From: Novosphingobium sp. IK01
Lineage (GTDB): Bacteria; Pseudomonadota; Alphaproteobacteria; Sphingomonadales; Sphingomonadaceae
Assembly (NCBI RefSeq): GCF_033242265.1
Contig: NZ_BTFW01000001.1
Location: forward strand, 496,001-560,000
DNA: 64,000 nt
Reading direction: 5' to 3'
Part shown: one piece after another, positions 44,071-63,113 of the stretch
Layout of the letters: the number at the start of each line of letters is the position of its first letter
Numbering within the stretch: the first letter of the stretch is position 1
Notes under the pieces: model-generated
The model's input: only the letters and a program-made list of their open reading frames with translations
Databases searched by the model: none
Told to the model about the DNA's origin: nothing
Program-made: the position numbers and the translations under genes

Positions 44071-44325
44071 TCAATTGCTCCGGCGGTGCTTCCCGCCATA
44101 GTGCTTGCCGCAATACTTTTCGAGGTTTTCCATCTCGCGCGCGGCGGCCGTGGCGGCGGCGAGGTCGCAGGGCATGGTTTCGGCAGCCGAAATGCGCGCA
44201 TCGACCCTTGCCTTGAGTTCTTCGATATCGGCGCGGCTGAACATGTTCTTCTCGCGCAGATAGCAGATCAGGCTTTGCAGGATGATGATCGCCTTTTCGC
44301 CGGAATCGATTTCGACACCTTCCAT
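44071..44325 (-). CDS. Small hypothetical protein
   Basis: An 84-residue protein that I do not recognise. It begins MEGVEIDSGEKAIIILQSL, is helical and charged (ADIEELKARVDARISAAE) and ends with a cysteine/histidine/lysine tail (YCGKHYGGKHRRSN). A GGGA lies upstream of the ATG at 44325. It faces away from the phospholipase C gene across 237 bases. The mixed-charge helix and codon use look like a real gene; function unknown. Confidence 0.6.
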   Translation of the reverse strand: MEGVEIDSGEKAIIILQSLICYLREKNMFSRADIEELKARVDARISAAETMPCDLAAATAAAREMENLEKYCGKHYGGKHRRSN

Positions 44326-44562
44326 CGTCGTAATCCCTGTCCTGTTCCCTTGCCGGACTTGTTTCCAAGCCGTTCTTCGCGAGTCCACTGGCGGAACCCT
44401 GTACCTTCCGAAGGTTCTCCTTCCCGGCGCAAAAGACAAGGGAAACCTTCAGGGGGCAAGAGAACAGGCCGGATGACGACCGGATTTTCGAAACCGTCAT
44501 CATGCCTTCAAACTCGCCCTCCAAAGCGGTGGCTTGAACGTCTTTTTATTGCGGAAACAAGT

Positions 44563-47568: not shown

Positions 47569-48343
47569 GCGGATCGCCTTCGTGCTCGCGGATCGTCCAG
47601 ATCCGTTGGCAGCGGGCCCCGCGTTCATCCATGCTGCGGGCGTCCATGGCGCGGGTGGTCAGTTGCCCGCCTGAAAGACCGGGGGCAAGCACGCGCCCTT
47701 CCTGCCACGGCAGGGTCGAGGCGGTGATTGTCCATTGGCCGTCATGCCGGACACCCAGCGAAATTTCGCAATCGAGCAGGGCACGGGTCGTGGCAATGTC
47801 GGGCGCGGCGCGGATCAGGTCTCCCAGACAGGCCCCGGTGGGCAGGGCTTCCTTGCGTCCACGGGCCATCATGAACAGGTTTCCGGCCCAGACCAGCAGG
47901 CCGGGGCGGTCGCCCTGCGCCTCGTGGAGCAGCAGGGCGCCGCAAGGGGTGCTCGCCCCGCTGTCGTGATGCCAGTGTTCGAGATAGGGCAGGTCGCGCC
48001 CTTCCTCCTTCATCATGCCGTCTTCCAGCCAGAGGCGCCCGGCATCGGGCAGCGCGGCGGGCGGCTGGAAATCGATGGCCCGGTGCCATTCGAAGAACTG
48101 GCCTGCCGGGGCAAGCCTTCCGGCAAAGGCTTCCTGCCGGGCCATCCAGGCGATCTGCGCGGTGTCGAGATCATCGAAGCCGGTGACACCGGCAAACGAA
48201 GGGCGGGCCTCGGGCTGGCGCAAGTCGGCATAGAGGCTGGGGCCTTGCAGCCAATGAACCTGCGTGGTGGTGTCGCGGCGGCCATCGGCCCAGGCCAGAA
48301 GGGAACGGCGCCAGAGGCCGGGCAGGGCATCCATGGTGATCAT
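47546..48343 (-). CDS. Unrecognised protein (about 265 residues)
   Basis: I do not recognise this family. It is soluble-looking, without a signal peptide or membrane helix. Notable features are a tryptophan/aspartate-rich N-terminal half (GLWRRSLLAWADGRRD, VHWLQGPSLYADLR), HWHHDSG near residue 113, and CEISLGVRHDGQWTI and TLPWQEGRVLAP near the end. Two starts compete: 48343 (MITM) or 48334; neither has a clear ribosome-binding site. It is divergent from the dioxygenase gene across 86 bases, so the two may share control. A calycin-like beta barrel would fit the strand pattern, but that is a guess. Confidence 0.65.
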   Translation of the reverse strand: MITMDALPGLWRRSLLAWADGRRDTTTQVHWLQGPSLYADLRQPEARPSFAGVTGFDDLDTAQIAWMARQEAFAGRLAPAGQFFEWHRAIDFQPPAALPDAGRLWLEDGMMKEEGRDLPYLEHWHHDSGASTPCGALLLHEAQGDRPGLLVWAGNLFMMARGRKEALPTGACLGDLIRAAPDIATTRALLDCEISLGVRHDGQWTITASTLPWQEGRVLAPGLSGGQLTTRAMDARSMDERGARCQRIWTIREHEGDPLSPLLRA

Positions 48344-48429
48344 CAGATGCTTTTGCGCGCTATCCCATGGTATTGCCAGACGTTGCTTGTCGATGGAGTC
48401 GCAAACGTGCGGCGCGGGGAGATGCATTC

Positions 48430-49467
48430 ATGGGTACCGGGTTCACTTCCATTCCGCTGGTCGACATTTCCGGGTTGCGCTCGGAGCGGGCGGAGGACCG
48501 GGCGCGGGTGGCCGGGGAACTGGCTCGCGCCGCGCGCGAGGTCGGCTTTCTCTATGTGACCGGTCATGGTGTTCCCGAGGCCCTGTTCGAGGGGGTGCGC
48601 GCGATGGCCGAGCGCTTCTTTGCCCAGCCCCTCGAAGCCAAGATGGATGTCTACATCGGGCGCTCGACCAACCATCGCGGCTATGTGCCCGAGGGTGAGG
48701 AAGTGTTTCAGGGGGCCAGCAAGGACCGCAAGGAAGCCTACGACCTCTCGATCGACCTTGCGCCCGACGATCCGGCCTGCCGCGATGGCCATGTTCTCCT
48801 CGGGCCCAACCAGTGGCCCGACCTGCCCGGATTTCGCGAGGCGGTTCAGGCTTACTATGATGCCACGTTCGCGGTGGGGCGCCTGCTCCTGCGCGGCTTT
48901 GCCCAGGCCATGGGCGAGGCGTCCGACCATTTCGAGGATGTTCTTTCCTGTCCGCCCAGCCAGTTGCGGCTGATCCACTATCCCCACGATCCGCTCGCGG
49001 TCGATGTCGTGGGGATCGGGGCCCATACCGACTACGAGATGTTCACCCTGCTTCATGCCACCAGCCCCGGCCTTGAAGTGCTGAACGGGGAAGGGCAGTG
49101 GATCGACGCGCCGCCGGTGCCGGGGGCCTATGTCGTCAATGTCGGCGACATGCTCGAAATCCTCACCAACGGGGCCTTCGTGGCCACCTCGCACCGCGTG
49201 CGCAAGGTCAGTGCCGAGCGCTATTCGTTTCCGCTGTTCTTCTGCCTCGACCACGACACCCGGATCGAGCCGCTGCCCCGTTTCGTGACCCCGGAAAACC
49301 CGGCGCGGGCGGGCCTTGTGGCGGGCGAGCATCTCTATGCCCAGACCATGCAGACCTTCACGTATCTCAAGGAACGCCTCGCGCATGGACAGATCACACT
49401 TCCCGAGGCGGCGCGCGCGCTGTCCTCGTTCGGGCAGGAGGCCCGCTACAAGGCTGTATCCGTCTGA
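48430..49467 (+). CDS. 2-oxoglutarate/Fe(II) dioxygenase, isopenicillin-N-synthase-like
   Basis: A 345-residue non-heme iron oxygenase. The N-terminal DIOX_N region (IPLVDISGL, REVGFLYVTGHGVP) precedes the double-stranded beta helix. The iron triad is H199 and D201 in AHTDYEM and H255 in TSHRV; R264-Y-S is the cosubstrate-binding RxS. This group includes many hydroxylases of unknown substrate in proteobacteria. GGGGAG lies 8 bases before the ATG at 48430. The long open frame on the other strand is a shadow. Confidence 0.88.
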   Translation: MGTGFTSIPLVDISGLRSERAEDRARVAGELARAAREVGFLYVTGHGVPEALFEGVRAMAERFFAQPLEAKMDVYIGRSTNHRGYVPEGEEVFQGASKDRKEAYDLSIDLAPDDPACRDGHVLLGPNQWPDLPGFREAVQAYYDATFAVGRLLLRGFAQAMGEASDHFEDVLSCPPSQLRLIHYPHDPLAVDVVGIGAHTDYEMFTLLHATSPGLEVLNGEGQWIDAPPVPGAYVVNVGDMLEILTNGAFVATSHRVRKVSAERYSFPLFFCLDHDTRIEPLPRFVTPENPARAGLVAGEHLYAQTMQTFTYLKERLAHGQITLPEAARALSSFGQEARYKAVSV

Positions 49468-49535
49468 TTTTCCGAACATGTTTCAGTCGTGAGGCAGGTG
49501 GCGCAGGCGCTGATCCGACTGGTGGCATGGAAAAC

Positions 49536-49564
49536 TTGACACATCGGCCATTTTTTGGACTAAT
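49536..49564 (+). promoter_or_regulatory. Candidate sigma-70 promoter for the ABC/PHA/acyl operon
   Basis: TTGACA at 49536-49541, a 17-base spacer rich in T, and ACTAAT at 49559-49564 (4/6 to TATAAT). The -35 match is perfect and the spacing ideal. It lies about 200 bases before the first adaptor gene in a 300-base region that otherwise holds only a possible short leader frame. Confidence 0.55.
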
Positions 49565-49697
49565 CATGCCGGTCTGCGTGATCAGATGGGCAGGGCAGCG
49601 TGCTTGCACGCGATTCTCCGTGGATTGATGTCGCGCAATAAAAACGGAATTTTTGGCCGCTAAGGCATGATCTTGCGCTGGTGGAGCGGGAACCCAT

Positions 49698-49772
49698 ATG
49701 GTGATGCAGATGCGTGATGCGGTTCTGGCCGCCAATTGGGCCGGGGCCAATCGGGGCGGGGTTGTCGGGTGA
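49698..49772 (+). other. Possible 24-codon leader frame coupled to the adaptor start
   Basis: An ATG at 49698 opens a 24-codon frame ending in TGA at 49770-49772, which overlaps the GTG start of the adaptor (GTGA). GGAG stands 11-12 bases before the ATG. The peptide MVMQMRDAVLAANWAG... resembles nothing. If translated it would couple translation into the adaptor; it could equally be chance. Confidence 0.3.
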
Positions 49773-50761
49773 AGCGGTCTGCTCTGATCGCTCTCGCGCT
49801 CGTTTGCGCCGGTGGGGCCGTGGCCGGTGGCCTTGCATGGCGCCACTATGTCCAGGCCGACAGGTTGCCCGACTGGGTCGTGCGCAGCAATGGCCGGATC
49901 GAGATGACGCGAACCGACATCGCGGTCAAATATCCCGGCAGGCTGGTCTCGCTTCTCGTCCATGAGGGCGATGTGGTGCAGGCCGGGCAAGTCATCGCCC
50001 AGCAGGACGACGCCGATGCGCTGGCCCAGCTCGATGGCGCCCGCGCGGCACGCGAAAGGGCGCAGGGCGGGCTCGAACGGGCGCAAGGCGAACAGGCGGC
50101 GCACCGCAGCCAGGCCGATCTCGCCCGGCTCGACTGGACGCAGACCGCCGGGCTTCATGATCGCGCGCTGGTTTCCGATGTCGAGTTGCGCCAGCGCCGT
50201 CTGGCTCTCTCGGGGGCGAGCGAAAGCGTGAGCGCGGCAGGCGGCGCCGTGGGCGAGGCGCGCGGCGCCATTGCCCAGGCCGATGCCCAGATCCGGCAGG
50301 TCTCCAACGTGCTCAACGATTTGCGCATCCGTGCGCCGGGGCCGGGGCGGGTCGAGTACCGGATCGTCGAGCCGGGCACGATGATGGCGCCGGGCGGGCG
50401 GCTGGTCTCGGTTGTCAATCCCGAGGACGTGACGCTCACGATCTTCCTGCCCGCAGCGGCAGCCTCGCGCATCCGTCTGGGCGACGAGGCGCGGATCGTG
50501 CCACAGGGCTTTGCCACGGCGCTGCCCGCGCGGGTCAGCTTCGTGGCCAGCGACGCACAGTTTACGCCCAAGTTCGTTGAAACCGCCAACGAGCGGGACA
50601 CGCTGTCCTATCGCGTCAAGCTCCAGATCCCTGCCGATGTCGCGCGCCGCTATGCCGGGCAGCTCAAGGCCGGGATGACCGCCGATGGCTATGTCCGCAC
50701 CGAGCAGGGCCATGCCTGGCCCGACCTGACGAAGTCCGCTCCGGTGAAATCAGGCGCATGA
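49769..50761 (+). CDS. HlyD-family adaptor of an ABC exporter
   Basis: A 330-residue membrane-fusion protein (YhiI/YbhG-like). One N-terminal anchor (ALIALALVCAGGAVAGG) is followed by the lipoyl half YPGRLVSLLVHEGDVVQAGQ, a coiled-coil hairpin at about 85-185, and LRIRAPGPGRVEYRIVEPG. The GTG at 49769 is preferred; a TTG 33 bases upstream is possible. The stop overlaps the ATG of the ABC protein (ATGA). It heads an operon whose next three genes complete a tripartite ABC exporter. Confidence 0.88.
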   Translation: MKRSALIALALVCAGGAVAGGLAWRHYVQADRLPDWVVRSNGRIEMTRTDIAVKYPGRLVSLLVHEGDVVQAGQVIAQQDDADALAQLDGARAARERAQGGLERAQGEQAAHRSQADLARLDWTQTAGLHDRALVSDVELRQRRLALSGASESVSAAGGAVGEARGAIAQADAQIRQVSNVLNDLRIRAPGPGRVEYRIVEPGTMMAPGGRLVSVVNPEDVTLTIFLPAAAASRIRLGDEARIVPQGFATALPARVSFVASDAQFTPKFVETANERDTLSYRVKLQIPADVARRYAGQLKAGMTADGYVRTEQGHAWPDLTKSAPVKSGA

Positions 50762-53532
50762 CGGCTTCGGGGAACGCCACGCACACCTCGATCAGCGTTG
50801 AAGGCGTTTCCCATCGCTATGGGGCGGTTCTGGCGCTCGACGGGATCAGCCTCGACCTGCCACGCGGCGGCGCGGTGGCGCTGGTCGGGCCCGACGGGGT
50901 GGGCAAATCGACGTTGCTGGGCCTGATCGCCGGGGTCAAGCGGCTTCAGGAAGGCCGCTTGCAGGTGCTGGGCACCGATCTGGCCGACAGCGACAACGCG
51001 CAGCGTTCGGCCTTTCTCGCGCGGGTGGCCTATATGCCCCAGGGGCTGGGGCGCAATCTCTATCCCACGCTCTCGGTGGCCGAGAACATCGACTTTTTCG
51101 GGCGGCTGTTCGGCCTCGACGCGGCCCAGCGCGCGGCCCATCAGGCCCGCCTGCTCGACGCGACGGGCCTCGCCCCGTTCCCCGATCGCCCGGCGGGCAA
51201 GCTTTCGGGCGGCATGAAGCAGAAGCTGGGCCTGTGCTGCGCGCTCGTCCACGACCCTGACCTCCTGATCCTCGACGAGCCGACCACGGGCGTCGACCCG
51301 CTCTCGCGACGCCAGTTCTGGGATCTGGTCGACGCCATGCGCGCCGAACGGCCCGAGATGACCGTGCTGGTCTCGACCGCCTACATGGAAGAGGCCGAGC
51401 GTTTCGCCCACCTCGTGGCGATGGATGCCGGGCGGATCATCGCGCAAGGGGCCACGGCCGACATCCTGCGCGAGACAGGCGCAAGCAATCTCGAACAGGC
51501 CTATATCAGCCTGCTGCCCCCCGAAAAGCGCCCGGCCACCGATTTGCCCGATCCCGGCCCATGGCAGGACACCGGCGAGGCACCGGCCATCGAGGCCCAG
51601 CACCTGAGCCGGCGGTTCGGCAATTTCGTCGCGGTCGACGATGTGAGCTTCCGCATCGGCAAGGGCGAAATCTTCGGTTTTCTCGGTTCGAACGGCTGCG
51701 GCAAGACGACGACGATGAAGATGCTGACGGGCCTGCTCGACGCGACGAGCGGCACGGCCAGCCTGTTCGGGCGCCCGATTGCGCCGGGCGACATGAAGAC
51801 GCGCATGCGCGTGGGCTACATGTCGCAGGCCTTTTCGCTCTATGAAGAGCTGACGCTGCGCCAGAACCTGATGCTCCATGCGCGGCTCTATCAGGTGCCT
51901 GCCGCGCAGGCGGGGGCGCTGGTCGACGAGGCACTGCGCCAGTTCGCCCTTGTCGAGCATGCCGATGCGGTGCCCGCCTCGCTGCCGCTGGGCATTCGCC
52001 AGCGCCTGCAACTGGCCGCCGCCTGCCTCCATGGCCCTGAAATCCTTATCCTCGACGAGCCGACCTCGGGCGTCGACCCGGCGGCGCGCGACATGTTCTG
52101 GGGCCATCTCCTGCGCCTCTCGCGCGAGGAGCGGGTGACGATCTTCGTCTCGACCCATTTTATGAACGAGGCGGAACGCTGCGACCGTATCTCGCTGATG
52201 CATCGCGGGCGCGTGCTGGCTGTCGGCACGCCCGAAGGGCTGACCCGCGAACAGGGCGCACAGCGGCTTGAAGACGCGTTCATCACCGTGCTGGAGGCGC
52301 AAGCCGATCCGGCGCCTGCTGCACCGGCCCATTCTGTCGACCATGCGCGTGGCGAGGCCGCGCCGGTCGTGACCGGCGGCGGGATTACGGGCTGGCTGGA
52401 GCGCTGGTTCGCCTTTGCCTGGGCCTTTGCCCGGCGCGAGGCCATCGAACTCGCGCGCGACAAGGTGCGCCTCGCCTTTGCGCTGGCCGGGCCGCTGGTC
52501 CTGCTGTGCGTGTGCGCCTATTCGATCTCGTTCGACGTGCAGGGCGTGCGCATGGCCGTGCTCGACCACGACCAGAGCGGGGCGAGCCGCGATCTCGTCC
52601 GCCGTTTCGAGGGAACCCGCTATTTCACCCTGGTCGCTCCGGTTGAGGGGGAGGAGGCCGCGCGCGAACGCCTGCGCGAGGGCAAGGCGCAAATGGTGCT
52701 CGACATTCCGCCCGATTTCGGGCGCGATCTGGCCAGTGGCCGCCATCCGCAAGTGGGCGTGCTGATCGACGGGGCGAGCCCGTTTCCCGCGTCGAATATC
52801 CGAGCCTACGCCGACGGGGTCGTGCTGGCCTATCAGGCGCAGATGCTTGGCGCCTCGCCGCTGGTTGCTGCCGGGGGCCTGACGATGCCCGCCAGCATCG
52901 AGCCGCGTTTCATCTACAATCAGGATTTCCGCAGCATCTATGCGATCACGCCGGGCGTGCTGATGCTCACGATGATCCTGATCCCGGCCATGCTGACGGC
53001 ACTGGGTATCGTGCGCGAGAAGGAGATCGGCTCGATCACCAATCTCCACGCCTCGCCCGCAGGCACGGGGGCCTTCCTGATCGGCAAGCAGGCGCCCTAT
53101 GCGGGGCTGGCCATGATCAGCTATGTCAGTCTGGTGACGACGATCATCCTCGTGCTGGGGGTTCCGCTCAAGGGGTCGCTGGTCGCGCTCACGATCGGGG
53201 CCGCGCTCTTCGTGCTGGCCTCGACGGGGCTGGGCATGTTGATCTCCACACTGGTGCGCAGCCAGGTTGCGGCGATCTTTGCGACCGCGCTGATCTGCCT
53301 CGTGCCCTCCGTCAACTTTTCCGGGCTGCTCTATCCGGTCTCCACGCTCGTTGGCGGCAGCTATTGGGTTGGCGTCGGGTTCCCGTCCTCGTGGTTCCAG
53401 ATCGTGAGCCTTGGCACGTTCACCAAGGGGCTGGGCATGGACAGCTTTGCGCAGGCCTATCTGGCGCTGGGCGGGTTTGGCCTCGCCTTCATCACCGCCG
53501 CGCGGTTCATGCTGGGGAAGCAGGAGGCATGA
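50758..53532 (+). CDS. ABC exporter with two ATPase domains fused to a permease (RbbA/YhiH-like)
   Basis: A 924-residue fusion: ATPase 1 (about residues 10-235) with GPDGVGKST, LSGGMKQKL and LLILDEPTTGVDP; ATPase 2 (about 285-510) with GSNGCGKTT, ILILDEPTSGVDP and a changed signature LPLGIRQRL; and an ABC-2 permease domain (about 550-915) with six helices. The altered second signature is usual for this subfamily. It pairs with the separate permease encoded next, which overlaps it by 4 bases. Cargo unknown. Confidence 0.92.
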   Translation: MTASGNATHTSISVEGVSHRYGAVLALDGISLDLPRGGAVALVGPDGVGKSTLLGLIAGVKRLQEGRLQVLGTDLADSDNAQRSAFLARVAYMPQGLGRNLYPTLSVAENIDFFGRLFGLDAAQRAAHQARLLDATGLAPFPDRPAGKLSGGMKQKLGLCCALVHDPDLLILDEPTTGVDPLSRRQFWDLVDAMRAERPEMTVLVSTAYMEEAERFAHLVAMDAGRIIAQGATADILRETGASNLEQAYISLLPPEKRPATDLPDPGPWQDTGEAPAIEAQHLSRRFGNFVAVDDVSFRIGKGEIFGFLGSNGCGKTTTMKMLTGLLDATSGTASLFGRPIAPGDMKTRMRVGYMSQAFSLYEELTLRQNLMLHARLYQVPAAQAGALVDEALRQFALVEHADAVPASLPLGIRQRLQLAAACLHGPEILILDEPTSGVDPAARDMFWGHLLRLSREERVTIFVSTHFMNEAERCDRISLMHRGRVLAVGTPEGLTREQGAQRLEDAFITVLEAQADPAPAAPAHSVDHARGEAAPVVTGGGITGWLERWFAFAWAFARREAIELARDKVRLAFALAGPLVLLCVCAYSISFDVQGVRMAVLDHDQSGASRDLVRRFEGTRYFTLVAPVEGEEAARERLREGKAQMVLDIPPDFGRDLASGRHPQVGVLIDGASPFPASNIRAYADGVVLAYQAQMLGASPLVAAGGLTMPASIEPRFIYNQDFRSIYAITPGVLMLTMILIPAMLTALGIVREKEIGSITNLHASPAGTGAFLIGKQAPYAGLAMISYVSLVTTIILVLGVPLKGSLVALTIGAALFVLASTGLGMLISTLVRSQVAAIFATALICLVPSVNFSGLLYPVSTLVGGSYWVGVGFPSSWFQIVSLGTFTKGLGMDSFAQAYLALGGFGLAFITAARFMLGKQEA

Positions 53533-54656
53533 AGCGCTGGCTGATCAATGTCTGGCTGCTGGGCGCCAAGGAACTGCGCAGCGTGATGAAGGACACGACG
53601 CTGCTCGTGCTGATCATCTTTGCCTTCACGGCGGCGGTCCTGATCGTGTCCAAGGGGGTCAAGGCCGAAGTGTCGAATGCGACCGTGGCCCTGATCGACG
53701 ATGATCACAGCGAGCTGTCGCGGCGCCTTGCCGATGCGATCCGCCCGCCCTATTTCCAGACCCCCGTGGCCATTTCGCGGGCCGATGTGGCAGGTTCGAT
53801 GGATCAGGGGCGCACGATCTTCGTGATCGAGATCCCCCCGCGTTTTCAGGCCGATGTCCTGGCCGGGCGCAGTCCGTCGGTGCAGATCCTCGTCGATGCC
53901 ACGGCAATGACGCAGGCCGGGCTGGGCGCGTCCTATTTCCAGCAGATCTTCGCTACCGAAGTGCTCGATTTTCTCCATCAGAACGGGATCATCGCCAGCC
54001 TGCCGTTCTCGGTGACGAGCCAGACGCTCTACAACCCCAACTCGCAATCGGCATGGTACACTGCCGTCATGCAGATCGTGACCAATGTCACTGTGCTCTC
54101 GATCATTCTGGTCGGCGCGGCGGTGATCCGCGAGCGCGAACACGGCACCATCGAGCATCTTCTGGTCATGCCGGTCAGGGCCAGCGAGATCGCCTTTGCC
54201 AAGATCCTCGCCAATGGGCTGATCATTCTGGTCGTCGCCATGGCCTCGCTGTGGTTCGTGGTCCACGGGGCGCTGGGGGTGCCGCTGGCCGGATCGCTGC
54301 TGCTGTTTGCCGGGGCGATGATGCTCTATCTGTTCTCGGTGACGGCGCTGGGCATGTGGATGGCCACGATGGCTCCCAGCATGCCCCAGTTCGGGCTGTT
54401 CGCGGTGCCGGTCTACGCCATTGCCTACCTGCTCTCGGGCGCGGCCACCCCGCTCCAGAGCATGCCGGTGCCGGTTCAGGCCATTGCCCGCCTGCTGCCC
54501 ACGACCCGTTTCGTCAGCCTGTCGCAAGCCGTGCTCTATCGCGGCGCGGGCCTGCATACGGTCTTGCCCGAACTGGTGATGATCTGTGGCTGGGGCACGG
54601 CTTTCGTGATCCTGGCTGTTCAACGTTTCCGCACGATGCTGGCCCGGCAAGGGTGA
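53529..54656 (+). CDS. ABC-2 type permease (YhhJ-like)
   Basis: A 375-residue inner-membrane protein with one N-terminal helix, a large periplasmic loop (about 45-175) and five helices in the C-terminal half. Typical segments are GAKELRSVMKDTTLLVLIIF, REREHGTIEHLLVMPV (the ABC-2 signature) and YLLSGAATPLQSMPVPVQA. It should form the second membrane half of the exporter with the fused ABC protein. The ATG lies in ATGA at the end of that gene. Confidence 0.92.
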   Translation: MKRWLINVWLLGAKELRSVMKDTTLLVLIIFAFTAAVLIVSKGVKAEVSNATVALIDDDHSELSRRLADAIRPPYFQTPVAISRADVAGSMDQGRTIFVIEIPPRFQADVLAGRSPSVQILVDATAMTQAGLGASYFQQIFATEVLDFLHQNGIIASLPFSVTSQTLYNPNSQSAWYTAVMQIVTNVTVLSIILVGAAVIREREHGTIEHLLVMPVRASEIAFAKILANGLIILVVAMASLWFVVHGALGVPLAGSLLLFAGAMMLYLFSVTALGMWMATMAPSMPQFGLFAVPVYAIAYLLSGAATPLQSMPVPVQAIARLLPTTRFVSLSQAVLYRGAGLHTVLPELVMICGWGTAFVILAVQRFRTMLARQG

Positions 54657-54682
54657 CCCCAGGGATGACCTCAGGGATAGAT

Positions 54683-56236
54683 ATGGCTCTTCGACACGCC
54701 GCCCCGCTTTCGCTTCCCTGCCGTTCGGCCATGCGCATGGTACCGGCCACGCTGGTTCTGGCGCTGGCAGCTTGCGCCGCCCCGCCGCCCTCCCGGCCAG
54801 CGCCCGCCGCGCAAGTCGTGGCGCCGGCCCGCCTCGATGCAGCTGCCGCACAGGGCGCTGCGCAAGGGGAGGGCGCCGCCGCGCTCGACCAGTGGTGGAC
54901 CGCCTGGGGCGATCCCGCGCTCGACAGGCTGGTGGACGCGGCGCTGGCCGCCAATACCGACTTGCGCGTGGCGCGCGCCCATGTTGAGGCCGCGCGCGCG
55001 CTCGCCTCGGTGGCCGAGGCCGCGCTCTATCCGACCATCGCCGCGCAAGGGGCGGGCTGGGGCAATGCCGGCGATACCGGGATCGATGGCACGGCAGGTT
55101 CGGTCCTGTCGCCCTTCACGCGCGGCGCGACCGGCGGTGGCTATCTGGTTGGCCTTGGCGCGCAGTGGGAGCCGGACATTTTCGGCGGGCGCCATGCCGA
55201 TGTCGCTGCCGCACAAGCCATGGCTGGCGGGGTCGACTGGATGGCGCAGGGCGTGCGCCTGATGGTCGTGGCCGATGTGGTAGAGAATTACCAGCAATGG
55301 CGCGGGCTTGAGGCGCGGCTTGCGCTGCTCGACCAGAGCCTTGAGGCCACGCGCGCGTTGACCGCGTATGTCGCCGCGCGGCAGGGCACCGGCCAGGCCA
55401 GCAAGCCCGACCTGACCCGCGCGCAGGCCGCCGCAGCGTCGCTTGAAGCCACGCGTCCCCAGCTTCTGGCCCTGATCGATGCGCGCCGCCGCCGCCTTGC
55501 GATCCTGTCGGGCGCGCTGCCCGAAGCGATGGTCGACGTGGTGCCGCGGCGCGGGGGCAGCTCCGATCTTGCGGTTCCGCCGCCACCATCGGGGCAATGG
55601 CCCTCGACCATTCTCGAACGCCGCCCCGATGTACGCGCGAGCATGGCCATGGTCGCGGCGCGGGCGGCCAAGCTCAAGAGCTACAAGGCCGATCTCTACC
55701 CGCGTTTCAGCATCGGTTTTTCGGGGCAGAACGGCGAGTTGGGTCTTTCGGGCCTGCCCGGCTTCGGGGGGACGATGGGCCTGCTCAACGTCAAGGCGAG
55801 CGTGCCGATCTTCACCGGCGGGCTCTTGCGCGGGCGGATCGCGGCGGGACAGGCCGAACTGGAAGGTGCGCTGGCCGCGCAGGACCGCACGGTCCTGTCC
55901 TCGCTGGAGGAAGTCGAGACCGCCTATGGCCTGCGCGCCGGGTTCGATGCGCGGGTCGCCGGGCTTGTCTCTGCCCGCACGCTTTCGGCCCGCCGGGCGG
56001 ACGAGGCACAGGCTTTCTATCGCGCCGGGCGTGTCACGCTCGGTGATGTGCTTCAGGCCCGGCTCGATACGCTGTCCGACGCCGACAAGCTCGAACAGGC
56101 CCGCATTGCCCAGCGCAGCGCCACCGTGCAACTCTACCGGGCCTTGGGTGGTGGCTGGAGCCCGCCCGCACCCGGCCCATCCGTTTCATCCGCCCATCCT
56201 GCCCTGCCAGTCTTGCAAGGGAGTTCCCCCCGATGA
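54683..56236 (+). CDS. Outer-membrane efflux lipoprotein of the ABC exporter
   Basis: A 517-residue NodT/OEP-family channel. A signal peptide ends in a lipobox-like LALAAC (cysteine about residue 32). WWTAWGDPALDRLVDAAL and NTDLRVARAHVEAARAL start the first OEP repeat; TILERRPDVRASMAMVAARA and LYPRFSIGFSGQ the second. AGGGA stands 5-6 bases before the ATG at 54683; the ATG at 54665 has no spacing for a site. Its stop overlaps the PHA-synthase-like gene by 4 bases. Confidence 0.88.
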   Translation: MALRHAAPLSLPCRSAMRMVPATLVLALAACAAPPPSRPAPAAQVVAPARLDAAAAQGAAQGEGAAALDQWWTAWGDPALDRLVDAALAANTDLRVARAHVEAARALASVAEAALYPTIAAQGAGWGNAGDTGIDGTAGSVLSPFTRGATGGGYLVGLGAQWEPDIFGGRHADVAAAQAMAGGVDWMAQGVRLMVVADVVENYQQWRGLEARLALLDQSLEATRALTAYVAARQGTGQASKPDLTRAQAAAASLEATRPQLLALIDARRRRLAILSGALPEAMVDVVPRRGGSSDLAVPPPPSGQWPSTILERRPDVRASMAMVAARAAKLKSYKADLYPRFSIGFSGQNGELGLSGLPGFGGTMGLLNVKASVPIFTGGLLRGRIAAGQAELEGALAAQDRTVLSSLEEVETAYGLRAGFDARVAGLVSARTLSARRADEAQAFYRAGRVTLGDVLQARLDTLSDADKLEQARIAQRSATVQLYRALGGGWSPPAPGPSVSSAHPALPVLQGSSPR

Positions 56237-58014
56237 CCGAGCCTGCTGCCTACCATCCCCCCGCAGCTCCGCCCCCCGCGCCCGATCCGCTCGACGGTCT
56301 GGCCGCAACCCTCGACCGCGCGGCCTTTGCAGGCATCGCCAGCATGACCGGGGGACTTTCGCCGGTCACCGTGGCCCAGGCCTTTTCCGACTGGGCGCTC
56401 CATCTGGCCGCCTCGCCCGGAAAGCGGCTCGATCTGCTGGGCAAGGCGGTGCGGCAATGGCTGCGCCTGGCCGACCAGTGTTGCCATGGCCCCAATCCCG
56501 AACATCCCGGAGCCCCGGCGATCAAGCCCCTGCCACAGGATCACCGCTTCGATGATCCGGCCTGGCAGCAAGGCCCCTTCGGCATGATCACCCAGTCCTT
56601 CCTGCTTGCCCAGCAGTGGTGGAGCAACGCCACGACCGGCATTTCGGGGGTCAGCGCCCATCACGAGGCGATCACTGCCTTTGCGGTCCGCCAGATGCTC
56701 GACATGGCCGCCCCCAGCAATTTTCTGGCGACCAATCCGGTCCTGCAACAGCGCATCCTCGATACCGGCGGGATGTGTCTGGTCGAAGGGGCAAAGCTGT
56801 TCCTCGCCGATCTTGCCGAGCTGACGCGCGGCGGCCCCGATCCGAAGGAAAGTCCGCTCCAGATCGGTCGCGACATCGCCGCCACGCCGGGCAAGGTCGT
56901 CTATCGCAACCGGCTGATCGAACTGATCCAGTACAGCCCGACGACCGCCGAAGTGAAGCCCGAGCCGGTGCTGATCGTGCCTGCCTGGATCATGAAATAT
57001 TACATCCTTGATCTTTCAGCCAACAATTCGCTGATCGCCTGGCTGGTCGGGCAGGGCTATACCGTCTTCGCGATCTCGTGGCACAATCCCACCAGCGAGG
57101 ACCGCAACCTCGACATGGACGATTATCGCCAGCTTGGCCCGATGGCCGCGCTGACGGCGATCCAGGCGATCACTGGCGCGGCGCATATTCATGCGCTCGG
57201 CTATTGTCTGGGCGGAACGCTGCTGAGCATCGCGGCGGCGGCCATGGCGCGCGAGGGCGACGAGCGCCTTGCCTCGGTTACCCTGCTGGCCGCGCAGACC
57301 GACTTTACCGAACCGGGCGAACTGGGCCTGTTCATCGACGAGGGCCAGCTCAACCTGCTCGACAGCATGATGTGGGAACGCGGCTATCTCGACAGCCACC
57401 AGATGGGCGGCGCGTTCCAGATGCTGCGCCCCAACGATCTGGTGTGGTCGCGCGTCCTCAACGAGTACCTGATGGGCGAGCGGCCGGGCGTCAACGACCT
57501 GATGGCCTGGAACGCGGACGGGACGCGCATGCCCTATGCCATGCACAGCGAATACCTGCGCCGCCTGTTCCTGCACAACGATCTGGCCGAAGGGCGTTTT
57601 CTGGCCGATGGCCGGGCCATTGCGCTCTCCTCGATCCGCCAGCCGCTGTTCGTGGTGGGCACCGAGACCGACCATGTCGCCCCGTGGCATTCGGTCCACA
57701 AGATCCACATGCTCACCAGCGCGGCGATCACCTTCGTGCTGACGAGCGGCGGGCACAATGCCGGGATCGTCTCCGAACCGGGCCACAAGCATCGCCACTA
57801 TCACATGCTTGAACGCCGCGAAGGCCAGGCCGCGCTTTCGCCCGACGACTGGCTGACCCAGGCAAACCCTTATGAGGGATCGTGGTGGGAGGCATGGGGC
57901 CGCTGGCTCGACGCCCATTCCGGCTCTCCCGTGCCGCCTCCGCCGATGGGCGCCCCGGACAAGGGCTATCTCCCGATCGCCGCCGCGCCGGGCACATACG
58001 TTCTGGAGAACTGA
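56233..58014 (+). CDS. Poly(3-hydroxyalkanoate) synthase-like protein (PhaC family)
   Basis: A 593-residue alpha/beta-hydrolase of the PhaC class I type. The lipase-box variant GYCLGG has the nucleophile C325; D480 in TETDH and H508 in GGHNAG complete the triad. PAWIMKYYILDLSANNSLIAW and FAISWHNPT are PhaC motifs. PhaC polymerises 3-hydroxyacyl-CoA. The setting, after an exporter and before a MaoC-Pta fusion and acetate kinase, is not that of a normal PHB locus (no phaA, phaB or phasin), so an acyl-CoA thioester/transfer role is possible. Confidence 0.9.
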   Translation: MTEPAAYHPPAAPPPAPDPLDGLAATLDRAAFAGIASMTGGLSPVTVAQAFSDWALHLAASPGKRLDLLGKAVRQWLRLADQCCHGPNPEHPGAPAIKPLPQDHRFDDPAWQQGPFGMITQSFLLAQQWWSNATTGISGVSAHHEAITAFAVRQMLDMAAPSNFLATNPVLQQRILDTGGMCLVEGAKLFLADLAELTRGGPDPKESPLQIGRDIAATPGKVVYRNRLIELIQYSPTTAEVKPEPVLIVPAWIMKYYILDLSANNSLIAWLVGQGYTVFAISWHNPTSEDRNLDMDDYRQLGPMAALTAIQAITGAAHIHALGYCLGGTLLSIAAAAMAREGDERLASVTLLAAQTDFTEPGELGLFIDEGQLNLLDSMMWERGYLDSHQMGGAFQMLRPNDLVWSRVLNEYLMGERPGVNDLMAWNADGTRMPYAMHSEYLRRLFLHNDLAEGRFLADGRAIALSSIRQPLFVVGTETDHVAPWHSVHKIHMLTSAAITFVLTSGGHNAGIVSEPGHKHRHYHMLERREGQAALSPDDWLTQANPYEGSWWEAWGRWLDAHSGSPVPPPPMGAPDKGYLPIAAAPGTYVLEN

Positions 58015-58017
58015 CCG

Positions 58018-59460
58018 ATGACCTCCACCCCCGCAAATACGCCCGCCCCGGATATGCCTGCCCCGAATATGATCGAGAACCGCACGTTCGAGGAAATCAC
58101 CGTGGGCGAGAGCGCGCAGATCTCGCGCACGCTCGGCCAGCGCGAGATCCAGCTCTTCGCGCTGGCCTCGGGCGACGTCAATCCGGCCCATGTCGATCCT
58201 GAATTCGCCGCGACCGACATGTTCCACAAGGTCATCGCTCATGGCCTGTGGGGCGGTGGGCTGATCTCGGCAGTGCTGGGAACCGAGTTGCCGGGGCCGG
58301 GCACGATCTATCTTGAACAGAGCCTGCGTTTCGAGCGACCGGTCGGACTGGGTGACACGATCACCGCGCAGGTCGTCGTTACCGGAAAGGACGAGCATCA
58401 CCACTTCGTGACATTCGCCTGCACCTGCACCAACCAGGCGGGCGAGGAAGTGATCTCGGGCATCGCCAAGGTCAAGGCGCCATCCGAGAAGATCCGCCGC
58501 CCCCGCGCCGCGCTGCCCGACATCCGCTTTGCCGACCACGATGGCTATCGCCGCCTGATGGAAGCGGCGCGCGGCCATCAGGCCATGCCGGTCGCCGTGG
58601 TCCACCCGTGCAGCGTGGCCGCGATCAGCGCGGTGATCGAGGCCTTCGAGGAAGGGCTGATCACGCCGATCCTCGTGGGGCCCACCGCCCGCATTCAGGC
58701 CGCTGCCAGCGAGGCGGGGGCCGACATTGGCGCCTTCCGCATCGTCGATACGCCCCACAGCCATGCCTCTGCCAGCGCGGCGGTCGCCCTGATCCACTCG
58801 GGCGAGGCGCAGGCCCTGATGAAGGGCTCGCTCCATACCGATGAACTGATGGGGGCGGCTGTTTCACGCGATGGGGGCCTGCGCACCGAAAGGCGCATCA
58901 GCCACGTCTACCTGATGGACGTTCCGGGCCATCCGACCCCGCTGCTGATCACCGATGCGGCCATCAATATCGCGCCCAACCTTCTGGAAAAGGCCGATAT
59001 CATTCGCAACGCCATCGATCTGGCCCATGTGATCGGGATCGCGCAGCCCAAAGTGGCGATCCTCTCGGCGGTCGAGACGATCAACCCGGCGCTGGCCTCG
59101 ACGCTCGACGCGGCGGCCTTGTGCAAGATGGCTGACCGGGGACAGATCACCGGCGGCCTGCTCGATGGCCCGCTGGCCTTCGACAATGCGATCAGCGCGG
59201 CCGCCGCGCGCGAGAAGGGGATCGTCTCGCCCGTGGCCGGACAGGCCGAAATCCTCGTCGTGCCTGATCTGGAAGCGGGTAACATGCTGGCCAAGCAACT
59301 GACGTTCCTGGGCGGGGCCGATGCCGCCGGGATCGTGCTGGGCGCGCGGGTGCCGATCATCCTGACGAGCCGTGCCGACAGCCTGCGCACGCGCCTCGCT
59401 TCGTGCGCGGTGGTGGTGCTGCTGGCAGCAGCAGCCCAGACCGGCGGGAAAAACGCATGA
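58018..59460 (+). CDS. MaoC dehydratase - phosphate acyltransferase fusion
   Basis: A 480-residue bifunctional protein. Residues about 20-160 are a MaoC-like enoyl-CoA hydratase (FALASGDVNPAHVDPEFA, LRFERPVGLGDTI). Residues about 175-470 are a Pta/Ptb-type acyltransferase (VAVVHPCSVAAISA, ALMKGSLHTDELMGAAV, YLMDVPGHPTPLLITDAA, ILSAVETINPALASTLDAAALCK shortened). It would hydrate enoyl-CoA and turn acyl-CoA plus phosphate into acyl-phosphate for the acetate kinase homologue encoded 4 bases downstream in overlap. Confidence 0.92.
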   Translation: MTSTPANTPAPDMPAPNMIENRTFEEITVGESAQISRTLGQREIQLFALASGDVNPAHVDPEFAATDMFHKVIAHGLWGGGLISAVLGTELPGPGTIYLEQSLRFERPVGLGDTITAQVVVTGKDEHHHFVTFACTCTNQAGEEVISGIAKVKAPSEKIRRPRAALPDIRFADHDGYRRLMEAARGHQAMPVAVVHPCSVAAISAVIEAFEEGLITPILVGPTARIQAAASEAGADIGAFRIVDTPHSHASASAAVALIHSGEAQALMKGSLHTDELMGAAVSRDGGLRTERRISHVYLMDVPGHPTPLLITDAAINIAPNLLEKADIIRNAIDLAHVIGIAQPKVAILSAVETINPALASTLDAAALCKMADRGQITGGLLDGPLAFDNAISAAAAREKGIVSPVAGQAEILVVPDLEAGNMLAKQLTFLGGADAAGIVLGARVPIILTSRADSLRTRLASCAVVVLLAAAAQTGGKNA

Positions 59461-60680
59461 CCCGCTCGATCATCAGCCTCAACTCGGGCTCATCGAGTAT
59501 CAAGTTTGGCCTCTATCATCTTGAGGAGCAAGGGCCGGTCCATGTCGCCGGAGGCAAGCTCGAAGGGATCGGCACGGCCCCGCGCATCCGCATCCACAGC
59601 GATACGGGCGAAATCCTGCTCGAAAAAAGCTGGGGCGAGGGAACCAAGGACGGCGGCGCCGGGCTGACCCACGAGCCCTTGCTCAGCGAGCTCTACGACT
59701 GGGCCCACGATCACCTTCAGGATCACGCCATCGTCGCGGTCGGTCACCGCGTGGTCCATGGCGGCGGGCGCTATTGGGCACCGCGCCTGATCGACGAAGC
59801 GCTCGTTGCCGAACTTGATACCTTTTCCCCGCTCGCCCCGCTCCACCAGCCCCACAACCTCGCCGCGATCCGCGAGATCGCACGCAAGGCCCCTCATCTG
59901 GTGCAGGTCGCCTGTTTCGACACCGGCTTCCACCATGCCATGCCCGGCGTCGCCACGCGCCTGCCGCTCCCGCGTGCCTATGCCGCGCGGGGGATGCGCC
60001 GCTATGGCTTCCACGGACTGTCCTACGAATATGTCTCGGCCCGTCTGGCCACGCTCGATCCGGCGCTGGCGCAAGGGCGGGTGATCGTCGCCCATCTGGG
60101 CAACGGGGCGAGCCTTTGCGCGATGCGCGGGGGGGCGAGCGTCGACACCACGATGGGCTTTACCGCGCTCGACGGGCTGATCATGGGAACCCGCACCGGC
60201 ATGCTCGATCCCGGCGCGGTGATCCACCTGCAATTGCAGGAAGGTCTTTCCGCGCACGAGGTCGAAAGCATGCTCTATCGCCGCTCGGGCCTGCTGGGCC
60301 TGTCCGAACTGTCGAGCGACATGCGCAGCCTTCATGCCAGCGATGATCCGCGCGCGGCCGAGGCCATCGAATCCTTCGTGTGGACCGCCGCGCGCCAGAT
60401 GGGCGCCCTGATGGTCTCGCTCGAAGGGCTCGACGGCCTCGTCTTCACCGCCGGGATCGGCGAGAACGACCCGGTCATCCGCGCGGCCATCTGCGCGCGC
60501 CTGGCCTGGACGGGGCTGGTCCTCGACGAGGCGGCCAATGCGGCAAATGCCCCCGTGATCAGCAGCCCGGAAAGCCGGGTCATCGTGCGCGTGATCCCCA
60601 CTGACGAAGAACGCCAGATCGCGCTTCACACGTTTTCGCTCACCCAGCCTTTCATGGATGCCGCCAAGGGAGATTCCTGA
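59457..60680 (+). CDS. ackA: Acetate/propionate kinase family protein
   Basis: A 407-residue acetokinase. LNSGSSSIKF at residues 8-17 is the first signature, GHRVVHGGGRYW the second; ACFDTGFHHAMP, VIVAHLGNGASLCAM and GTRTGMLDPG are further conserved motifs, and GIGENDPVIR the C-terminal one. It makes ATP from acyl-phosphate, the product of the preceding Pta domain. Preference for acetate, propionate or butyrate is not visible. Starts at 59457 in ATGA; its stop and the fabI start share TGATG. Confidence 0.93.
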   Translation: MTRSIISLNSGSSSIKFGLYHLEEQGPVHVAGGKLEGIGTAPRIRIHSDTGEILLEKSWGEGTKDGGAGLTHEPLLSELYDWAHDHLQDHAIVAVGHRVVHGGGRYWAPRLIDEALVAELDTFSPLAPLHQPHNLAAIREIARKAPHLVQVACFDTGFHHAMPGVATRLPLPRAYAARGMRRYGFHGLSYEYVSARLATLDPALAQGRVIVAHLGNGASLCAMRGGASVDTTMGFTALDGLIMGTRTGMLDPGAVIHLQLQEGLSAHEVESMLYRRSGLLGLSELSSDMRSLHASDDPRAAEAIESFVWTAARQMGALMVSLEGLDGLVFTAGIGENDPVIRAAICARLAWTGLVLDEAANAANAPVISSPESRVIVRVIPTDEERQIALHTFSLTQPFMDAAKGDS

Positions 60681-61453
60681 TGACGCCTCTGGTCGATCTG
60701 TCCGGCAAGCGCGGGCTTGTCGTGGGCATTGCCAACGAACATTCGATTGCCGCAGGCTGCGCGGCCGCCTTTGCCCGTTGCGGGGCGAGCCTTGCGGCAA
60801 CCTATCTCAATGACAAGGCCAAGCCGTTTGTCGCGCCGGTGGCCGAAAAGCTGGGCGTGGACATGCTGCTTCCGTGCGACGTGCGCGTGCCGGGCGAACT
60901 CGAAGCGGTCTTCGAAACGATCCGCAAGGAATGGGGAAGGCTCGATTTCGTGCTGCACTCGATTGCCTTTGCCCCGCATGACGACCTGTTCGGGCGGGTC
61001 GTCGACAGCTCGGCCGAAGGCTTTGCCCTGGCCATGGATGTCTCATGCCACAGTTTCGTGCGCATGGCCCATCTGGCCGAACCGCTGATGGACAAGGGCG
61101 GGGCCCTGTTGAGCGTGACGTTCTACGGATCGGAGCGCGTGGTTGCGCATTACAACCTCATGGGGCCGGTCAAGGCCGCGCTCGAAAGCACGACCCGCTA
61201 TGTCGCCGCCGAACTGGGCGCCAAGGGCATTCGCGCCCATGCCATCTCGCCGGGGCCTATTTCCACGCGGGCGGCCAGCGGGATCGACCGGTTCGACGAA
61301 CTGCTCGACCGTGCCAGCGCGCTGGCGCCGGAAGGCACACTCGCCACGATCGACGACGTGGGCGCACTGGCCGCCTTTCTGGCCAGCGATGCAGCCCGTC
61401 ACATAACCGGAACGGTGATTCCGGTTGACGGGGGCGCGCATTTGATGGCTTGA
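60680..61453 (+). CDS. fabI: Enoyl-ACP reductase FabI
   Basis: A 257-residue short-chain dehydrogenase of the FabI type. GLVVGIANEHSIAAGCA is the NADH-binding motif; LHSIAFAP, SCHSFVRMA and the active-site tyrosines Y149 and Y158 with K165 (Y-x6-K) are present. VIPVDGGAHLM ends the fold. It reduces trans-2-enoyl-ACP (or enoyl-CoA). Its place at the end of an acyl-CoA/acyl-phosphate operon suggests an accessory copy rather than the housekeeping fatty-acid gene. Confidence 0.92.
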   Translation: MTPLVDLSGKRGLVVGIANEHSIAAGCAAAFARCGASLAATYLNDKAKPFVAPVAEKLGVDMLLPCDVRVPGELEAVFETIRKEWGRLDFVLHSIAFAPHDDLFGRVVDSSAEGFALAMDVSCHSFVRMAHLAEPLMDKGGALLSVTFYGSERVVAHYNLMGPVKAALESTTRYVAAELGAKGIRAHAISPGPISTRAASGIDRFDELLDRASALAPEGTLATIDDVGALAAFLASDAARHITGTVIPVDGGAHLMA

Positions 61454-61466
61454 GCGCCCAGGCGCC

Positions 61467-62261
61467 ATGGACGGAACAATGGACAAGGGGCCGGTAACGG
61501 AACGACCAGCAACGGATCGGATGGTCATGCCTCACACCCGCAAGGGCCCCTATGGACCATCGGAGAAGCGCGAGACGACCCGTGCGCGCAACATGGAGAA
61601 GATCGAGGCGGCGGCCTGGAAGGTTTTCGCCTCGATAGGCCTCGATGGTGCCACGGTGCGCGATATCGTCACCCAGAGCGATGTCTCGGCGGGCAGTTTC
61701 TACAACTACTTCGGAACCAAGGAGGCTGTCTTCGGGAAGCTGATTGCCGATCTGGTCGATCGCGTCCGCATCGAGGTTGCACAGGCGCGCGCCAAAAGCG
61801 CGCAAGTGGCCGCGCAGGGGCCGGATGGCGTGGCTGTCGAGGATGTCGAGGCCATGCTCGCGCGCGGATACCGCGTGTTCATGGATGTCGTTCTGGCCAT
61901 TCCCGAAGGGCCGGCTTTTTTCGAGAAAAACCAGCATCACATCCGCTCACGCCTGTTCGGCGCGCGCCAGATCGATGTCCTGATGGCCGATATCGCCGCC
62001 AATGTCGACGAACTTGCCGCCTCGCGCGGGCTTTCGCCCGGCGAGCGGCAATTGCTCAGTGCGATCATCTATGCCTCGGGGACCGAGGCGCTGTTTGTCG
62101 CGCTGCGCAGCGGGCAAACGATCAGTGCCGGATACCCCGACTTCCTCGCGCAGTTGCTGGCCCGTGGATTTGGCGCACTGATCGTTGGTGGCCAGTTCGG
62201 CGCTCGCCCGTCAGTCGCCGCGCCAGCGCAAGGCCTCGATCAGCAGGCTGAAAGCCGGTGA
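61467..62261 (+). CDS. TetR-family transcriptional regulator
   Basis: A 264-residue regulator. The HTH is VRDIVTQSDVSAGSFYNYF with GTKEAVFGKL, the standard TetR ending of helix 4. The C-terminal ligand domain is long. It lies 13 bases after fabI on the same strand, so it is probably the repressor of the export/acyl operon. The start is uncertain: ATGs at 61467, 61479, 61521 and 61527 are all in frame, and the last two start closer to the HTH. Its 3' end overlaps the convergent LysR gene by 51 bases. Confidence 0.88.
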   Translation: MDGTMDKGPVTERPATDRMVMPHTRKGPYGPSEKRETTRARNMEKIEAAAWKVFASIGLDGATVRDIVTQSDVSAGSFYNYFGTKEAVFGKLIADLVDRVRIEVAQARAKSAQVAAQGPDGVAVEDVEAMLARGYRVFMDVVLAIPEGPAFFEKNQHHIRSRLFGARQIDVLMADIAANVDELAASRGLSPGERQLLSAIIYASGTEALFVALRSGQTISAGYPDFLAQLLARGFGALIVGGQFGARPSVAAPAQGLDQQAESR

Positions 62262-63113
62262 AGCCTGCCGGCGGCTCGGATAATAGAGGTGATAGCCGGG
62301 GAAAGGCGGGCACCAGTCTTCGAGTACGCGGATGAGACGGCCTTCCTCGATAGCCTCGGAAACCTGATCCTCGATGGTCACCGCAAGGCCGAGCCCGGCT
62401 TCGGCGGCATCGATGGCGAGTTCCGTACCCGCAAAGGTAAGCTGCCCGTCGACCCGCACGTTCATCACGCGCCCGTCCTTCTCGAACTCCCACGCATAGA
62501 GCCCGCCTGCGGTGGGCATGCGCCAGTTGATGCACGAATGGGCGGACAGGTCGTGTGGAGTGAGGGGGATCGGGTTGCGTTCGAAATAGGAAGGCGCGCC
62601 CACGCAGGCCATGCGCAGTTGCGGCCCGACGCGCACGGCGATCATGTCGCGGTCGATCGCTTCACCCAGGCGGATCCCGGCATCGAAACGCTCCTCGACA
62701 ATATCGACGAAGCCATTGTTTACGTTCACTTCGACATGGATGTCGGGATATTCGGGCAGGAGCGTGCGCAGGACCGGCCAGAGCACCGTGCGCGCCACAT
62801 TATCGGTAACCGTCAGGCGGATATTGCCGGCAGGCTTGTCGCGCAGGCTGGTGATCTCGCTGATGCCGGTGGCGATCTGGTCGAGCGCCGGGCCGATCAC
62901 CTCGACCATGCGGTCTCCCGCATCGGTGGGCGAGACCGCACGGGTCGTCCGCGTCAGCAGGCGGACACCGACCTTGGATTCCAGGCGCCGCATCGCGTGG
63001 CTGAGCGCCGATTGCGAAGTCCCCAGACGGGCCGCAGCACGGGTGAAGCTGCGTTCCTCGGCCACGACCAGAAATGCCGCCAGCGAGGCGAGGTCGGAAC
63101 GGTCATAGCTCAT
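62211..63113 (-). CDS. LysR-family transcriptional regulator
   Basis: A 300-residue LysR protein: HTH region LAAFLVVAEERSFTRAAARL and GTSQSALSHAMRRLE, linker LLTRTTRAVSPTDAGDRM, then a substrate-binding domain starting PAGNIRLTVTDN. It is closely similar in style to the LysR at 26238 (both share WEFEKDG and EDWCP...Y-LYYP), so the two are likely paralogues. The target genes are not adjacent in an obvious way; the gene upstream is separated by 222 bases and read in the same direction. Confidence 0.88.
   Translation of the reverse strand: MSYDRSDLASLAAFLVVAEERSFTRAAARLGTSQSALSHAMRRLESKVGVRLLTRTTRAVSPTDAGDRMVEVIGPALDQIATGISEITSLRDKPAGNIRLTVTDNVARTVLWPVLRTLLPEYPDIHVEVNVNNGFVDIVEERFDAGIRLGEAIDRDMIAVRVGPQLRMACVGAPSYFERNPIPLTPHDLSAHSCINWRMPTAGGLYAWEFEKDGRVMNVRVDGQLTFAGTELAIDAAEAGLGLAVTIEDQVSEAIEEGRLIRVLEDWCPPFPGYHLYYPSRRQASPAFSLLIEALRWRGD

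Follow-up and report, generated by a model that had tools for sequence, protein, structure and literature searches.

Genes for polyhydroxyalkanoate (PHA) synthase-like proteins have been described beside genes of acyl phosphate metabolism in several bacteria. According to the cited passages of these studies, phaC, a phaJ-pta fusion, ackA and fabI form group D1 in Burkholderia sensu lato (PMC8231600), phaC1-fabI-bi-pta-ackA genes occur in Cobetia and Halomonas (PMC8686332), and Herbaspirillum phaC2 lies in an operon with pta-ackA (PMC8222739). Likewise, the ORF-pta-ackA-fabI operon of Sinorhizobium meliloti is described there as PhoB-controlled (Summers, 1999, as cited in PMC8231600), and a Bradyrhizobium gene, named phaC2 in the passage concerned, as a FixK2 target whose product was assumed not to be an active polyhydroxybutyrate synthase (PMC10888616). 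Here, we analyzed an operon of Novosphingobium sp. IK01 that joins such genes to an RbbA-type exporter. It lies at positions 49769-61453 of the window, a stretch of 64,000 nucleotides (contig NZ_BTFW01000001.1, 496,001 to 560,000) to which the IK01 coordinates below refer. The PhaC/Pta/AckA/FabI grouping, mentioned for other Alphaproteobacteria in a preliminary description of this DNA, is real and published, as the passages on group D1 and on Cobetia and Halomonas indicate (PMC8231600, PMC8686332). Whichever side the count starts from, exporter and PhaC lie together far more often than chance would allow.

Gene content of the IK01 operon

Eight genes follow one another on the forward strand. 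The first encodes an HlyD-type periplasmic adaptor (49769-50761, GTG start; Pfam HlyD_3, 45.8 bits, scored on the longer reading 49736-50761), and the second an RbbA-type protein in which two ATP-binding cassette (ABC) ATPase domains, with two Walker A motifs, are fused to an ABC-2 permease (50758-53532; NF033858, 1337.8 bits against a curated cut-off of 1050). A second, YhhJ-like ABC-2 permease (53529-54656; ABC2_membrane_3, 137.2 bits, scored on the longer reading 53364-54656) and a NodT/TolC-family outer-membrane channel (54665-56236; TIGR01845, 217.3 bits against 210.05, read from 54671) complete the exporter. Next come the PHA-synthase-like protein of the PhaC2 clade (56233-58014; PhaC_N, 183.3 bits), a fusion of an R-hydratase-type MaoC domain with a Pta/Ptb domain (58018-59460; NF006045, 746 bits against 282), an acetate/propionate family kinase, AckA (59457-60680; TIGR00016, 340.2 bits against 293.4), and a FabI-type enoyl reductase (60680-61453; NF005717, 421.6 bits against 337). 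Profile searches and open reading frame coordinates thus agree with all the gene families and open frames first assigned. The overlaps of one to four bases reported earlier were seen at five of the seven junctions (4, 4, 4, 4 and 1 bases); the other two are gaps, of 8 bases between permease and channel and of 3 bases between PhaC and Pta. The eight genes likely form one transcription unit, and a consensus scan found internal terminator-like and promoter-like sites to be no more frequent than in shuffled sequences. Thirteen bases after FabI lies a gene for a TetR-family protein, a candidate regulator of the operon (61467-62261, forward strand; TetR_N, 47.1 bits).

The triad C325/D480/H508 proposed for the operon PhaC is indeed intact, being invariant in nine aligned sequences of its clade and aligning with the canonical PhaC of the same genome. 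The protein scores below the cut-off for class I PHA synthases (TIGR01838, 528.9 bits against 622.65). Among the matches listed for 387 alphaproteobacterial genomes, PhaC relatives fall into two blocks, at or above 532 bits and at or below 454 bits, and by these blocks the operon PhaC is closer to the PhaC2 clade, that of the phaC-pta-ack-fabI clusters, than to canonical PhaC. The PhaC2 block was found in 61 of the 387 genomes, counted by eye from at most three scored candidates per genome, so that some PhaC2 were possibly missed. A second, canonical PhaC of IK01, 36% identical to the operon protein, lies about 2.1 Mb away on the same contig with a phasin frame adjoining it. The earlier statement that no phasin is present is therefore true locally and does not extend to the genome. 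Since a canonical PhaC-phasin pair is kept elsewhere, the operon PhaC is an accessory paralogue. Polymer synthesis from hydroxyacyl-CoA, as in class I PHA synthases, is a possible activity of it, and the transferase role suggested earlier is hypothetical.

In the IK01 genome, the Pta query matched the MaoC-Pta fusion alone at E 1e-60 (of 14 candidates, 10 were scored), and no second AckA was found at E 1e-5. No pta- or ackA-type gene was found outside the operon that holds PhaC2 and the exporter. Besides the operon FabI, the genome has at least two more FabI-like genes, with identities of 61% and 42% to it. The MaoC domain contains SGDVNPAHVD and FabI contains Y-x6-K, which we take to be their catalytic motifs.

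Linkage of PhaC2 with the exporter and the acyl module

From the PhaC2 side, we examined the best 80 of 587 loci, all from named genomes, scoring RbbA by tblastn within 10 kb. As these are the closest relatives, the linked fraction does not apply to PhaC2 as a whole. An RbbA match was found at 28 of the 80 loci; one is a weak, partial ABC match (L175), leaving 27 clear cases, and a further locus with its permease cut by a contig end (L105) was not counted. Of the 27, 11 also carry Pta or AckA and 16 lack both; Pta/AckA occurs without the exporter at 21 loci (32 of 80 in total). Flanks were shorter than 8 kb on one side at 26 loci; of the other 54, where each flank reaches 8 kb or more, the exporter is present at 20, Pta/AckA at 19 and both at 8. 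Exporter and PhaC2 are divergent at 14 of the 28 loci, on the same strand at 12 and convergent at two, with a gap of just 45-469 bases in nine. Three pairs of loci are near copies (L110/L112, L141/L150 and L180/G360).

The commonest neighbour families of PhaC2, each named from one representative, were MaoC-Pta (29 loci), AckA (26), RbbA (25), HlyD (23), YhhJ (22) and FabI (19), or 28, 25, 24, 22, 21 and 18, respectively, without the window locus. Short-chain dehydrogenases (11 loci) and universal stress proteins (10) followed, and others, including a second ATP synthase set, P-type ATPases and a beta-CASP nuclease (8 each), occurred at no more than 8 loci. The second ATP synthase set (L113, L116, L128, L129, L139, L162, L168 and L171) has an ATPase_gene1-type subunit at all loci except L116, and is perhaps, we presume, a sodium-type N-ATPase.

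From the exporter side, RbbA was found in 42 of the 387 genomes (46 matches). From these we drew 40 loci, each with at most 8.6 kb of flank, and set aside the window match and those of G417, G470, G337 and G317 (two); locus L209 has only about 1.5 kb before the exporter. HlyD and YhhJ adjoin RbbA at 40 of 40, as in IK01. After these parts of the exporter itself, PhaC2 is the commonest family, at 9 of 40 loci spread over four genera, two of which account for seven of these loci; a loosely related ABC ATPase set (7), beta-CASP (4) and FabI (3) follow. Pta and AckA were found at none of the 40 loci. Beyond these flanks, genome G173 is an exception, where the contig of the exporter also carries MaoC-Pta and, about 9.9 kb away from the permease gene, AckA; no PhaC2 was found there. 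We rejected the idea that the exporter belongs mainly with Pta/AckA, given these 40 loci and the 16 of 27 linked PhaC2 loci that carry neither gene. In genus g88 (L196, L201 and L203), imelysin and di-haem peroxidase families recur near exporter and PhaC2. In G015 (L097), FabI is divergent beside HlyD and PhaC2 is far away; the RbbA of this locus (L097:7784-10506) matches in two overlapping frames, possibly a frameshift.

Among 20 other genomes holding both genes, nine have PhaC2 and RbbA within 10 kb, where about 0.1 would be expected with one copy of each placed at random. As a control, none of 20 lower-scoring, canonical PhaC rows among the matches listed for RbbA genomes lay within 10 kb of RbbA. 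The two genes also co-occur (p ~8e-8; a second p-value was 1e-4, and both ignore kinship). In a sample of the order, PhaC2 was found in 13 of 147 genomes, RbbA in 6 and both in 5, close together only in IK01 and G024. On a quick tree of 57 RbbA rows (33 linked), the linkage label changes at least 10 times, all changes being forced by starred branches; co-occurrence tables and tree labels were read by eye, and some "not linked" labels are possibly wrong. The possibility raised at the outset, that exporter and acyl genes are unlinked in nearly all relatives, thus fails for PhaC2 and nearly holds for Pta/AckA. Because of the linkage counts from both sides and the changes on the tree, the pairing of PhaC2 with the RbbA exporter looks genuine, whereas PhaC2 seems to have in the ATP-yielding module a second partner from which it can be separated.

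The full combination recurs in Novosphingobium sp. SG707 (L104), which keeps the order of all nine genes; their proteins are 54-82% identical (65-82% without TetR, itself kept at 54%). With gene starts that we chose among those listed, its HlyD/RbbA, RbbA/permease, channel/PhaC, Pta/AckA and AckA/FabI junctions are able to overlap by 4 bases. Compact same-strand clusters of exporter, PhaC2 and acyl genes, in which the exporter may stand on either side of the acyl genes, were found in the window, L104, L110/L112, G024 (L082) and plasmid pSA3; at L118 and L153 the parts share one strand with about 3-4 kb between them. On pSA3 the order is phaC-pta-ackA-fabI-phospholipase A-hlyD-rbbA-permease-tolC. 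The ten-gene block from TetR to TolC (L185:12303-25632) is flanked by IS21 and IS3 family insertion sequence genes on a mobilizable plasmid, and plausibly it is therefore able to move as a unit. The outer-membrane phospholipase A, with the motif HESNG, lies between FabI and HlyD in pSA3, L110 and L112, and was found in five related loci altogether, including one pair of near copies. Among seven sampled congeners, the exporter was found in none, PhaC2 in one and Pta without the MaoC part in one. A conserved TetR was rejected as a defining part, as the window TetR has no detectable relation to that of pSA3; it is weakly related to the TetR that separates exporter and PhaC in L142.

A proposed joint role and its alternatives

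That PhaC2 and the exporter are recurrent neighbours suggests joint work on one product. We propose that the operon unites two conserved partnerships of PhaC2, one with the RbbA/YhhJ/HlyD exporter, in IK01 also with an outer-membrane channel, and one with a fermentation-like acyl module. The MaoC domain would interconvert enoyl-CoA and (R)-3-hydroxyacyl-CoA, and PhaC2 would take the hydroxyacyl groups and esterify them. FabI would reduce enoyl-CoA with NADH to acyl-CoA, from which the Pta/Ptb domain and AckA would yield free acid and ATP, an energy gain from acyl phosphate that fits these two families. This would balance redox and supply ATP under oxygen or energy limitation, and the exporter would remove a product of acyl or lipid-like nature that PhaC2 or the acyl branch makes or releases. 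Export of an acyl product is plausible, and we consider this proposal, with its chemistry and export, to have somewhat less than an even chance of being right. The gene content, intact motifs, gene coupling and non-random linkage on which it builds are observed; the direction of flux, the substrates, the use of low oxygen and the exported product are inferred.

Several observations weigh against the proposal. Neither the exporter nor Pta/AckA was found at 31 of the 80 PhaC2 loci (23 of the 54 with full flanks), so both pairings are optional, and Pta and AckA were not found within the flanks of the exporter-centred sample. Our literature searches brought up no substrate of an RbbA exporter. The substrate evidence for the Pta domain is mixed: it passes the PRK11890-type phosphate acetyltransferase model NF008852 (493 bits against 413), fails the phosphate butyryltransferase model TIGR02706 (301.3 against 410.5) and scores lowest with the pta model TIGR00651 (75.5 against 311.2). 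In favour of the proposal, the closest relative of the domain with a solved structure is a phosphate butyryltransferase. Given the pass with NF008852 and the failure with TIGR02706, plain acetate chemistry seems as open as butyrate. Moreover, the IK01 operon is flanked by phospholipase C, EamA, 2-oxoglutarate oxygenase and LysR genes, unlike the stress-gene neighbourhood of other loci. The first of these, a phosphoesterase gene with a PLipase_C_C domain, lies about 3 kb upstream (44086-46623, forward strand); a lipid link to the operon is possible.

Regulatory sites belong to the same weighing. A weak FNR/FixK-like site before the operon (TTGATGTCGCGCAA, 49625-49638, no strand assigned), with two mismatches to TTGAT-N4-ATCAA, is not significant alone, as 6.6% of shuffles were as good, and three of 13 divergent exporter-PhaC2 gaps (L135, L145 and L162) have no site better than shuffles; both results again speak against the proposal. 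Five of the 13 gaps, two of them near copies, do have an FNR-like site, among them L168 with one site in a 323-base gap. In favour of the proposal, the motif is enriched before PhaC2 genes, where 11 of 51 intergenic regions contain it with at most one mismatch, compared with 36 of 504 control regions (p 0.002; the controls are other regions of the same loci, and the loci are not independent); it also precedes HlyD in three of nine regions. Low-oxygen control is supported for part of the family, the IK01 operon offering a weak candidate site. A candidate promoter block with TTGACA (49536-49541), at 49526-49546 on the forward strand, is conserved against the matching gap of L104 and, with two sequences compared, is suggestive; it is absent from the list of the consensus promoter scan. 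We found no Rfam match over 48000-63000, no palindrome 5' of the operon at the settings used and no tRNA in the window that could mark an integration site. Base composition is not odd, at 64-70% G+C throughout the operon, the flanks being alike.

The FNR-like boxes before PhaC2 and HlyD genes would also be expected if exporter, PhaC2 and acyl module were all genes of low-oxygen or energy-stress islands, neighbours through co-regulation and co-transfer that share no common substrate. The universal stress proteins, second ATP synthase, P-type ATPases and beta-CASP nucleases near PhaC2 agree with such islands, as do the beta-CASP genes that adjoin four exporter loci without PhaC2 and the position of Rhizobium pRL9 rbbA near groEL, BON and Usp genes. 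However, PhaC2 outnumbers beta-CASP around the exporter, no universal stress family was found among the eight neighbour clusters scanned there, and the shortest exporter-PhaC2 gaps leave little between the two genes. We hold this explanation to be nearly, but not quite, an even bet, about as probable as the proposal of a shared acyl or lipid product.

An improbable alternative is tolerance to xenobiotics or solvents, with TetR-controlled efflux of a toxic compound while PhaC2, FabI and, elsewhere, the phospholipase repair or remodel membranes. It would account for the TetR gene of IK01 and L104 and for the HESNG phospholipase of the five related loci, and a passage on Zymomonas reports an RbbA pump that is up in heat-adapted mutants (PMC11989028); the IK01 and pSA3 TetR proteins are unrelated, however, and it gives Pta and AckA no obvious role. 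Chance neighbours fused after horizontal transfer, without joint function, would suit the patchy operon and the lack of the exporter in the congeners, but this is highly improbable, chance adjacency being rejected by the linkage counts from both sides: the linkage recurs in several families and four layouts, and L104 keeps gene order and overlaps.

Comparison with described systems

A bolder form of our proposal makes PhaC2 the cytoplasmic half of an export pathway and not a storage enzyme. Short hydroxyacyl oligomers or hydroxyacyl-lipids would leave by the RbbA tripartite pump through both membranes, and MaoC-Pta, AckA and FabI would supply PhaC2 and yield ATP when oxygen or energy runs low. 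We regard this as doubtful; if true, RbbA pumps would gain a substrate. RbbA exporters and PhaC2 paralogues are both widespread in the class sample and PhaC2 is poorly explained, and their pairing makes the two questions testable together.

The clusters of Burkholderia group D1 and of Cobetia/Halomonas likewise bring together a PhaC paralogue, a MaoC/PhaJ-Pta fusion, AckA and FabI, but the cited accounts, as far as these passages go, mention no exporter. In the S. meliloti operon, pta, ackA and fabI are also co-transcribed; it differs in its phosphate control, and no exporter appears in the citing passage. Searches of the RbbA and HlyD literature, the latter judged by title, found no description of a phaC-pta-ackA-fabI group coupled to an RbbA exporter. 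The exporter itself resembles yhiI-rbbA-yhhJ of Escherichia coli K-12, which has an adaptor, a fused RbbA (52% identical) and a permease in identical order, but neither an outer-membrane channel gene nor acyl genes in the stretch compared. In the clostridial butyrate branch, enoyl reduction is followed by formation of an acyl phosphate by Ptb and of acid and ATP by Buk; the IK01 operon differs in its AckA-type kinase and FabI-type reductase and in the addition of PhaC and an exporter. The phaC-pta-ackA-fabI group was thus already known, and the pairing of PhaC2 with RbbA is new as far as our literature searches reach.

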